From a virus, in IMG/VR virus record IMGVR_UViG_3300043446_003592, positions 1 to 21,215 of that record: a DNA stretch of 21,215 bases. One strand, 5' to 3'. A program made the position numbers and the translations under genes. Position 1 is the first letter of the stretch. The number at the start of each line of letters is the position of its first letter. Shown here in pieces: positions 5,394-7,179 of this stretch. The notes beneath the pieces are model-generated. The model searched no databases, was not told the origin of the DNA, and saw nothing but the letters and a program-made list of their open reading frames with translations.

Positions 5394-6035
5394 TTAACTT
5401 TTTTGGTATAAAAATTTGACATCATTTGCCAAACAGTAGTCAATAAACTGTTCAAACTGGTCAGGATGGTCAATAAAATGATCTTCGATTAATACATCTA
5501 CCCAAAAGGGAAGAAAAAGTGGTTTCTTTTTTCCGGACCTTTTTGCCTGATAAAATGCCTCTATTTGACCCCTTCTTTCATTCTTTATGTCTTCGTCCGA
5601 AAAAATTTGCGATTTAAGGCCATTTGCAGCCTTATTTTCGGCTTTTCTCTGAACTTCCGACCGCTGACCAAGGTAAGTGTTCAAAACCTCGTCAATTAGG
5701 CTTAAATTCATTTGCTTACCCCAATCGTTAATTCCTACCCCAAAAGCCCGAAATGCAAATTCGATTTCGGAAACGTTTAAAACGGGATAGCTTTCTGTAA
5801 GTTTTTTTTCAAATTGGTCAACCAAAATGACCATCATTTCTTTTTCCGGAATGGACCAACCGGTGATGACGTGAATGGTCAGCATGAGTTGAGCCACTGC
5901 CGTTCGTCTTTGAAATTTGTCCAATCGGTTAATTGCCGGTGCCGCTGTCGTCAGCTGATAAATCTTCTGTTCTTGCGGCTCGAAGTTCTTCAATAAGCTG
6001 GTAAGCTCCCCTGGATGCTTTTGAATGTTTGTCAT
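5394..6035 (-). CDS. Replication-associated protein, possible helicase-loader-like
   Basis: A 213-residue soluble, mostly helical protein. Residues 35-110 (RLDKFQRRTAVAQLM, then EKEMMVILVDQFEKKL, then VLNVSEIEFAFRAFGVG) followed by a LIDEVLNTYLGQRSE segment resemble small helical proteins next to YdaU- or DnaD-like genes in Bacteroidetes phages. There is no Walker A motif, so it is not a DnaC-type ATPase. The second half is basic and may contact DNA or the helicase. Its first 107 nt overlap the 3' end of the upstream replication gene in another frame, an unusually long overlap; a later ATG at 5885 would shorten it but would remove conserved-looking sequence. Function is inferred mainly from context. 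Confidence 0.5.
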   Translation of the reverse strand: MTNIQKHPGELTSLLKNFEPQEQKIYQLTTAAPAINRLDKFQRRTAVAQLMLTIHVITGWSIPEKEMMVILVDQFEKKLTESYPVLNVSEIEFAFRAFGVGINDWGKQMNLSLIDEVLNTYLGQRSEVQRKAENKAANGLKSQIFSDEDIKNERRGQIEAFYQAKRSGKKKPLFLPFWVDVLIEDHFIDHPDQFEQFIDYCLANDVKFLYQKS

Positions 6036-6651
6036 TTTTTTTGATTTTGTTTTTTAATGCCCAATAGGTGAAATGGTGATAAAGTTCTTTTTTGTTTTTG
6101 AAATCCAAAGACAATTCGATGGTCTGAATAAATTCTTTCTGCATTGCCTCCAGCTGATCCATTTTTAATCCCTTGTCAATGCAAAACTTTTCTTTCCATC
6201 TAAAATCGTTAAAAAAATTTTTTTTAGTAAAATTCCAATTTTCGTTTTCATTACTATTTTTATTTAAATCAATTATATTTTCATTTACATTTTCATTTTC
6301 AGAACGCATTGCGTTCGCAATGCGATCGCATACATCGTTATTTTTGTTTTTATTCCATCTCTTATTAGCTGATTGTCTTGCTTTTATGCCTTTTTCACTG
6401 CGCTTTTTCATCTCGATTTGAAGCCTTTCGTTGTAGCTTCCAAGGCCATCATGGGTGAATTTTTTAAAAACCGCATCACCGTTCGCAATGCGTTCGCATT
6501 GCATTCGCAGTTCTTCCGTTGGAATTCGGCCGTTGTGCTGGTGCTGAAGACATAACATTTTTATATATAAACCAATCTGTTCCAACGACATAAACGTTGT
6601 ACCAGTTAAAAAATCTGAACTATAAAAAAGAAATGCTGGGTCTTTGGACAT
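5929..6651 (-). CDS. YdaU/DUF1376-like phage replication protein
   Basis: The 240-residue protein begins MSKDPAFLFYSSDFLTG.TTFMS.EQIGLYIKMLC, the N-terminal winged-helix layout of YdaU/DUF1376-like replication proteins. An Asn/Lys-rich linker follows (residues 95-140), then a helical C-terminal domain (FCIDKGLKMDQLEAM, ELYHHFTYWALKNK) like those that bind DNA or recruit helicase. The frame opens upstream only through a TTG, so the ATG at 6651 is chosen; it lies 13 nt from a GGAGGG buried in a hairpin and directly after eight T. Two GC-rich palindromes lie within the coding sequence at 6305-6324 and 6484-6502, encoding CDRIANAMR and MQCERIANG, and could be an internal origin as in the lambda O gene. 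The 3' end overlaps the next gene by 107 nt. Confidence 0.7.
   Translation of the reverse strand: MSKDPAFLFYSSDFLTGTTFMSLEQIGLYIKMLCLQHQHNGRIPTEELRMQCERIANGDAVFKKFTHDGLGSYNERLQIEMKKRSEKGIKARQSANKRWNKNKNNDVCDRIANAMRSENENVNENIIDLNKNSNENENWNFTKKNFFNDFRWKEKFCIDKGLKMDQLEAMQKEFIQTIELSLDFKNKKELYHHFTYWALKNKIKKNDKHSKASRGAYQLIEELRAARTEDLSADDSGTGN
6305..6324. repeat. CGCATTGCG-TT-CGCAATGCG palindrome
   Basis: A perfect 9+2+9 inverted repeat inside the YdaU-like gene, overlapped by the palindrome GCGATCGC at 6322-6329. It is very GC-rich for the region and shares its 9-mer with 4366-4374 and, in inverted arrangement, with 6484-6502. Confidence 0.75.
6484..6502. repeat. CGCAATGCG-TT-CGCATTGC palindrome
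   Basis: Perfect 8+2+8 arms (6485-6492 and 6495-6502) in the same gene, with the two half-sites in reversed order relative to 6305-6324. A related CATTCGC follows at 6502-6508. Candidate initiator-binding site. Confidence 0.7.
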
Positions 6652-6741
6652 AAAAAAAATAAAGCCCTCCGGAATTAAGGTGAAGCAACCACCAAAATTC
6701 CTTTGGGCTAAAAAAAGTTTAAATGCCAAGTTGCTTTTGGC
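6652..6741 (-). promoter_or_regulatory. Structured mRNA leader with two complementary hairpin loops
   Basis: On the minus-strand RNA, hairpin 1 (6741-6725) is GCCAA, loop AAGCAAC, UUGGC. Hairpin 2 (6709-6663) is a 5-bp outer stem (AGCCC/GGGCU), a 3x3 internal loop, a 6-bp stem (GGAAUU/AAUUCC), a UU/UU loop, a 4-bp stem (GGUG/CACC) and a GUUGCUU loop. The two 7-nt loops are exact complements and could kiss. Hairpin 2 contains the GGAGGG of the following gene and is followed by UUUA and eight U up to the AUG at 6651, so it also looks like a terminator or attenuator. Confidence 0.6.
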
Positions 6742-6753
6742 CTTTCAAAATTA

Positions 6754-7179
6754 TTAAATTTCGCAAAAAATCAAAAAGTCAGACACCTTTTTTTGGAATT
6801 GATTATCCACAACACATTGGTTTTTTACAGCCTTTAAAATTCGGTAAGAAGTTGTTCGGTGCATACCAAAAAAATCTGCAATTTCATTTAAGTTAATGCC
6901 GACCAGGTGCATAACATATCGAATAATGTTCTTTACTTCCATTACATGGTAATAACGATAATCCTTAAAAAATAAATGTGAATCTTTGATTTTAAAAAAA
7001 ACAACAGCCTTTTCAAATATGTATTTAGCCGTGTACTTTTTGGGGGATTTTTCGTCAAGTAAATAACCGGCTTTAGTTCTCACCCATTCCGGAAGCTGAT
7101 TATGTTCCTTCGTTAATTCCTTTAAAAATAGGGTGATTTCCTTCCAATTTGCTTTTGGGGCAAACGAATTTATTTCCAT
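6754..7179 (-). CDS. DnaA domain IV-like DNA-binding protein
   Basis: The 141-residue protein ends in a helix-turn-helix region at about residues 93-120 (GINLNEIADFFGMHRTTSYRI, split here by LKAVKN) that resembles DnaA domain IV, where the second helix carries an HHTTV-like signature; here it reads MHRTTSY. The first 75 residues are basic and helical with no Walker motifs, so the AAA+ part of DnaA is absent. It probably binds DNA near the replication origin or acts as a regulator. Its start lies 80 nt inside the 3' end of the upstream small gene, and it is followed by the two-hairpin leader of the YdaU-like gene, so it may control or cooperate with that protein. DNA binding is fairly sure, its target unknown. 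Confidence 0.65.
   Translation of the reverse strand: MEINSFAPKANWKEITLFLKELTKEHNQLPEWVRTKAGYLLDEKSPKKYTAKYIFEKAVVFFKIKDSHLFFKDYRYYHVMEVKNIIRYVMHLVGINLNEIADFFGMHRTTSYRILKAVKNQCVVDNQFQKKVSDFLIFCEI

Follow-up and report, generated by a model that had tools for sequence, protein, structure and literature searches.

A leader RNA with kissing hairpin loops before phage replication operons, a candidate transcription attenuator

The window, a 21,215-base IMG/VR virus record, carries upstream of its replication gene a leader in which two hairpins, H1 and H2, have loops that are perfect 7-nt complements. Pairing between the two loops (the kiss) is very strongly supported by covariation among leaders of related phages. 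Comparison of DNA sequences, on which our evidence rests throughout, establishes a promoter motif, H1, the kiss, H2 and a U-tract, together with their order, their spacing and their near restriction to replication operons. The leader is probably, though far from certainly, a transcription attenuator that acts in cis on the phage replication operon from its 5' end. On a broader proposal our judgment is evenly balanced. It holds that these elements form an undescribed class of leader RNA, widespread among phages, whose definition is almost entirely one of geometry (a 5'-terminal hairpin, a 7-bp kiss to a terminator loop and a spacing of ~40 nt) rather than of sequence. Such a class would gate the replication operons of Bacteroidota-type phages by a self-contained competition between kiss and terminator, without a metabolite pocket, and would have H-type pseudoknot variants in further phages.

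Leader anatomy in the window

The leader occupies the 102-nt gap between an upstream ORF (6754-7179) and the replication gene (5929-6651) on the minus strand (Table 1). An earlier note had described in this gap two minus-strand hairpins whose 7-nt loops are perfect complements, and both are located where it placed them. H2 is composed of AGCCC/AAA/GGAAUU/UU/GGUG-GUUGCUU-CACC/UU/AAUUCC/GGA/GGGCU. Its internal loops are symmetric, 3x3 and 2x2. These loops, the GGAGGG inside H2 and the U-tract right before the AUG are all present as the note reported. Compared with shuffled versions, the leader of the window folds with a z of -2.81, 1 of 200 shuffles being equally good. Folding alone is weak evidence and the comparative evidence is decisive.

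Bacteroidota promoters have the consensus TTTG / TAnnTTTG (PMC7366714, PMC6847099), and the G of the -7 element is numbered -5 in F. johnsoniae (PMC6847099). In 26 of 31 elements, the distance from the end of a TAnnTTTG-type -7 element to H1 is 3-22 nt. Two relatives (L143 and L148) have the same register of promoter and predicted +1 as the window.

The Pfam match of the replication protein to DUF1376 is weak (E 6.5e-4, below the family cut-off). The protein also matches phrog_9327 with an E of 3.4e-9; PHROG 9327 and 6451 are annotated as primosomal protein. Relatives of RecT and NinG are found as same-strand neighbours. The upstream ORF shows a weak match to the DnaA C-terminal helix-turn-helix (E 0.012, below cut-off). 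A start at the in-frame TTG at 6729 further upstream, with H2 then part of the coding sequence, was considered and rejected, as protein conservation starts at the ATG.

Table 1 Features of the leader and replication gene in the window
Feature	Positions	Strand	Basis and remarks
-33 promoter element TTTG	6772..6775	-	Predicted; consensus TTTG/TAnnTTTG (PMC7366714, PMC6847099); -34 to -31 from predicted +1
-7 promoter element TAATTTTG	6746..6753	-	Sequence
Predicted transcription start, G6741, first base of H1	6741	-	Counted from G-5 of the -7 element, F. johnsoniae numbering
Hairpin H1, 5-bp stem GCCAA/UUGGC, 7-nt loop AAGCAAC (6736-6730)	6725..6741	-	Folding; conserved in relatives as hairpin and complementary loop
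H1-H2 linker, 15 nt, AUUUAAACUUUUUUU	6710..6724	-	Sequence
Hairpin H2, terminator-like, loop GUUGCUU (6689-6683)	6663..6709	-	Folding; loop complementary to H1 loop
U-tract UUUAUUUUUUUU at the foot of H2, adjoining the AUG (6651)	6652..6663	-	Sequence
Replication gene, 240 aa, DUF1376/YdaU-like	5929..6651	-	Pfam and PHROG matches

Covariation of the loops across phages

A tblastn search of IMG/VR with the replication protein alone identified no relative, and neither a hairpin DNA pattern nor blastn of the leader gave useful ones. Searches for RNA that are based on sequence are blind to an RNA that conserves its shape alone and is free to change its letters. A search with the neighbouring NinG led to the first relative, L002, which has a matching gene order and a replication protein 33% identical to that of the window. 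A two-row alignment of the replication protein then gave 80 loci, and a 14-row alignment gave 80 more viral loci and 68 genome loci. After deduplication, the comparison set comprises 168 replication genes with upstream sequence, many of the related contigs being partial metagenomic records. The type of promoter and the few identifiable relatives point to Bacteroidota as hosts. Cultured Flavobacterium elemo phages match the protein in its later part only, and no kissing leader was flagged in them.

The leader of L002 reads UCAG-GUCGCAU-CUGA, a linker, GGCUC AAA GG UUU AGGGAA-AUGCGAC-UUCCCU AUUU CC GGC GAGCC, then UAUUUUAUUUU and AUG. Its loop letters are unlike those of the window, yet its loops are again perfect complements. 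Annotation of the relatives yielded 41 different elements that use 26 distinct loop pairs. The kiss measures 7 bp in 30 of the 41, 8 bp in 8 and 6 bp in 3, and the two loop segments are spaced by 36-47 nt. In 22 non-redundant elements, Watson-Crick pairing at the kiss reaches 100% between own partners, as compared to a mean of 37% and a maximum of 58% between shuffled partners. Several pair types are observed at every kissing position and at every inner stem position of the same 22 elements. Complementarity is retained in relatives with wholly different loop letters, so that the loop-loop pairing proposed in the earlier note holds up under the check it had named, covariation over homologous phages. 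H1 loops frequently start with GU, and many linkers pass from an A-rich to a U-rich part ahead of GCCC.

Because the kiss had helped to select the annotated elements, an independent test of the loops was made. Leaders were chosen only by a U-rich end and a stem, and their loops were taken from ordinary folding, with kissing ignored. Of the 37 leaders, 17 have own loops that are complementary over a stretch of 6 nt or longer; with permuted partners, the mean is 0.73 and the maximum 6 in 20,000 permutations. The value of 17 of 37 is an underestimate, because folding closes extra pairs within some true loops (those of the window, L002, L094, L232, L240, L275, L308 and L266). Since the strict descriptor of the element was devised with the first examples already known, the permutation test of folding-defined loops serves as a check on it.

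Placement of the element and start context

Specificity was assessed by scanning the contigs of 25 of these phages and the window, 1.02 Mb over both strands. Of the 22 matches to the descriptor, 20 precede the replication gene; the other two precede an 81-aa gene situated just upstream of the replication gene and a DNA methyltransferase gene, respectively. A shuffled control gave 1 match in three rounds. Chance hairpins might be suspected, given that the window is AT-rich and that a pair of hairpins within 102 nt is by itself not unusual. With the permutation test, the fixed geometry and the specificity across contigs, this explanation is refuted and its probability is negligible.

In L093, L097, L277, L288, L136, L119 and L126, no leader directly precedes the replication gene and the element is placed instead at the head of the operon, before its first gene. 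Judged by this placement, the element belongs to the operon rather than to the replication gene as such, and its move to the first gene of the operon is as expected of transcription control. No kissing leader is found before many other replication genes, including nearly all of those from bacterial genomes. In L288, L136, L119 and L126, the first ORF after the leader encodes 168-175 aa and is homing-endonuclease-like by eye. A second kissing leader is located before a DNA methyltransferase gene (L150:760-850 in contig G012, and also L329). The same phage uses two loop pairs, CTAACGG/CCGTTAG before the methyltransferase gene and GTCGCCG/CGGCGAC before the replication gene.

A unit with its own promoter and a terminator-like end may also be read as a small RNA gene. 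A stable ~90-nt RNA, its ends locked by the kiss, would then act in trans, for instance on replication or on the host, and its place before the replication gene would serve dosage or joint expression, as for the two IsrK isoforms of a Salmonella prophage. In phages, IsrK and the P4 seqA/CI RNAs provide precedents for an RNA with a short and a read-through form (PMC4825925). Such a gene is nevertheless improbable. The element is kept ~20 nt or less ahead of the first gene in one type of operon and is nearly absent elsewhere in the contigs; its loop letters vary freely, with no constant trans target evident. It is harder still to believe that the inverted repeats act as DNA, either as origin hairpins or as binding sites of the replication protein, with loop complementarity as a by-product. 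The location beside the replication gene would suit this very doubtful role. The promoter immediately 5' of H1 and the U-tract on one strand only speak against it, as do loop letters that, unlike a protein site, are not conserved and the elements that precede other first genes of the operon or a methyltransferase gene.

The end of the leader has the anatomy of an intrinsic terminator, with a G+C-rich stem and a U-run directly after it, from which release of RNA polymerase is predicted. The distance from the stem end of H2 to the T-tract has a median of 0 nt (40 elements). The AUG is ~20 nt or less from the U-tract in nearly every element, 7-20 nt when counted from the U-tract start. In L101, L114, L288 and L119, where the AUG is 18-20 nt off, the U-tract remains at the stem and the region before the AUG is A-rich. 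In the other leaders, T is found at -1 to -3 in 82-94%. A favourable start context in Bacteroidota has A at -3 and -6 (PMC6847099). These positions carry A in 6% and 3% of cases with the element versus 51% and 48% in relatives without it. Loss of these two A residues argues that the U-tract is not there to aid translation, and the comparison fits a terminator that has replaced a good start context.

The earlier note assigned GGAGGG to the gene, which would make it a Shine-Dalgarno sequence. Because this motif is not conserved (GGCGAG in L002, GAUGGG in L148, absent also in L308, L154 and others), we reject a functional reading of it; Shine-Dalgarno sequences are naturally absent from Bacteroidota messages (PMC6847099). 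The view of the leader as regulatory for the replication gene is supported by the comparison. Of the switch in translation or termination that had been suggested, termination is the output now favoured and the part based on GGAGGG falls.

Control of translation is the best rival because the AUG is always near, and we consider it unlikely but worth weighing. The kissing H1-H2 fold would be a compact 5' UTR that sets ribosome access, by helping or by blocking. The U-tract might serve as a landing site for the ribosome or S1, and the replication protein possibly represses itself via the leader, as proteins do repress their own synthesis at leader pseudoknots. Long-range loop pairing controls initiator translation in IncI-type repZ, which provides a precedent, and the short distance to the AUG in nearly all elements also speaks for this view. 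Against it, the U-tract tracks H2 and not the AUG, and the A-rich start context returns when the AUG is 18-20 nt off. An unfavourable start context and the variability of GGAGGG weigh on the same side. Still, the AUG is nearer to the U-tract than a pure transcription attenuator needs, so that the leader may have a part in translation.

Proposed attenuation and comparison with known leaders

We infer that H2 terminates transcription and that the kiss counteracts termination rather than helps it. Transcription would start at the foot of H1 and H1 would therefore form first. The loop segment of H2 would emerge from the polymerase ahead of the 3' arm of H2, and at that stage it could form a helix of exactly 7 bp with the H1 loop. 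Immediately afterwards, the 3' arm and the U-tract would emerge. Complete closure of H2 would terminate transcription intrinsically, a few nucleotides short of the first AUG. A kiss that holds would hinder full closure, because the linker is only ~15 nt long, and the polymerase would read into the operon. With medians of 15 nt for the linker and 19 nt for the 5' arm of H2 (40 elements), the kiss and full closure of H2 likely strain each other. The output of replication protein would be set by the balance of kiss and terminator, which a ligand or a protein may tip; the replication protein itself is a candidate.

A close parallel is the guanidine-IV (mepA) riboswitch, where the loop of an upstream hairpin kisses the loop of the terminator hairpin and hinders complete closure of the terminator, leading to read-through (PMC11611296). 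By this analogy, we propose with moderate confidence that the kiss would correspond to read-through and closed H2 to stop. The sign could also be opposite, with the kiss stabilising H2 and favouring termination. H2 stems vary and several have internal loops, which makes the strength of the terminator uncertain. The kissing loop between upstream and terminator hairpins is common to both systems, the terminator function being deduced here from anatomy. Unlike guanidine-IV, the phage element has no conserved ligand core, its loop letters are free, it has no Rfam match and it precedes phage replication operons instead of exporters. Nothing resembling a ligand-binding conserved core was seen in the elements.

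The kiss is the only conserved long-range contact in the leader. A conserved antiterminator helix was looked for without success, since helices that the 5' region could form with either arm of H2 do not surpass those in swapped controls. The strand exchange imagined in the earlier note likewise finds no comparative support where the H2 stem is concerned.

Several plasmid systems are related in part. In IncI/IncB repZ, the leader contains a pseudoknot and uses sequestration of the Shine-Dalgarno sequence, a leader peptide and an antisense RNA. The parallel drawn with it beforehand stands as far as it concerns a replication initiator gene whose leader uses long-range loop pairing. The three parts that define the plasmid system were not found here: GGAGGG is not conserved, no conserved leader peptide was seen and an antisense promoter is not enriched. 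Moreover, both partners here are hairpin loops and the second hairpin has a terminator-type U-tract. Attenuators of the pIP501/pT181 type share with the element a terminator-like leader hairpin just before rep; they depend on an antisense RNA as well as on an antiterminator helix, and neither finds support here. In ColE1, 7-nt loops of RNA I and RNA II pair fully with one another in kissing complexes. The 7-nt kiss is thus shared, between two RNAs there and within one RNA here.

Binding of an RNA forces termination in pIP501/pT181 plasmid attenuation and in P4 and P1 c4 phage immunity. One may thus imagine antisense copy control or superinfection immunity, in which an RNA from the opposite strand, or processed from a related phage, would bind a loop and force termination. 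A leader of a replication gene, with a terminator-like hairpin before the gene and rapidly changing loops, is what this explanation would predict, and we give it only a slight probability. An antisense promoter was looked for, and only 6 of 41 leaders have an antisense -7-like motif close to the start, which is no enrichment. An integrase is found in 1 of 17 partial contigs, and the replication protein profile at E<=1e-20 in 2 of 396 GTDB Bacteroidota genomes, one being the genome on which the sample was centred. Lysogeny therefore looks uncommon. There is no c4 match in Rfam, and the internal partner would outcompete a partner in trans.

P4 seqA/CI, P1 c4 and Gifsy-1 IsrK are terminated or read-through phage leader RNAs that affect replication or early genes (PMC4825925). 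Like them, the element is a phage leader RNA. They differ in acting in trans, P4 and c4 in lysogeny; the pairing here is within one leader and most contigs are without integrase.

The leader of the window has no match in Rfam at E up to 5, and 20 loci have none at the gathering score, P1/P7 c4 antisense RNA (RF01695) included. Rfam thus lacks the element, although dozens of phage contigs carry it ahead of replication genes. In the open-licence PMC literature, no paper was found that describes a leader of this type. The comparison points to a cis-regulatory leader RNA of the loop-loop pairing sort, itself apparently undescribed. If the kiss controls termination, the leader would be a very small natural switch of ~90 nt with no evident ligand pocket, useful for the study of co-transcriptional folding. 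It would also represent control at the RNA level of replication genes in Bacteroidota phages, whose messages are without Shine-Dalgarno sequences.

Other leaders show related plans. At L010:1100-1205, a similar architecture (CCACCAT/ATGGTGG, T-tract) precedes a seemingly unrelated replication initiator-like protein. The leaders of L105 and L118 and of L179 and L185 also contain a terminator-like hairpin, the loop region of which pairs with a 5' segment, the pairings being TGGAACC/GGTTCCA, TGTAATCAACGAC/GTCGTTGGTTACG and GGTGAGGG/CTCTCACC. L110, L115, L116 and L117 have a variant plan 130 nt upstream of the replication gene, with two long interleaved helices (for example GCTCCTCAG/CTGGGGAGC and CCCACCATTAC/GTAGTGGTGGG). 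The arrangement is that of an H-type pseudoknot with a T-rich end before the ATG, and compensating changes are observed among the four.
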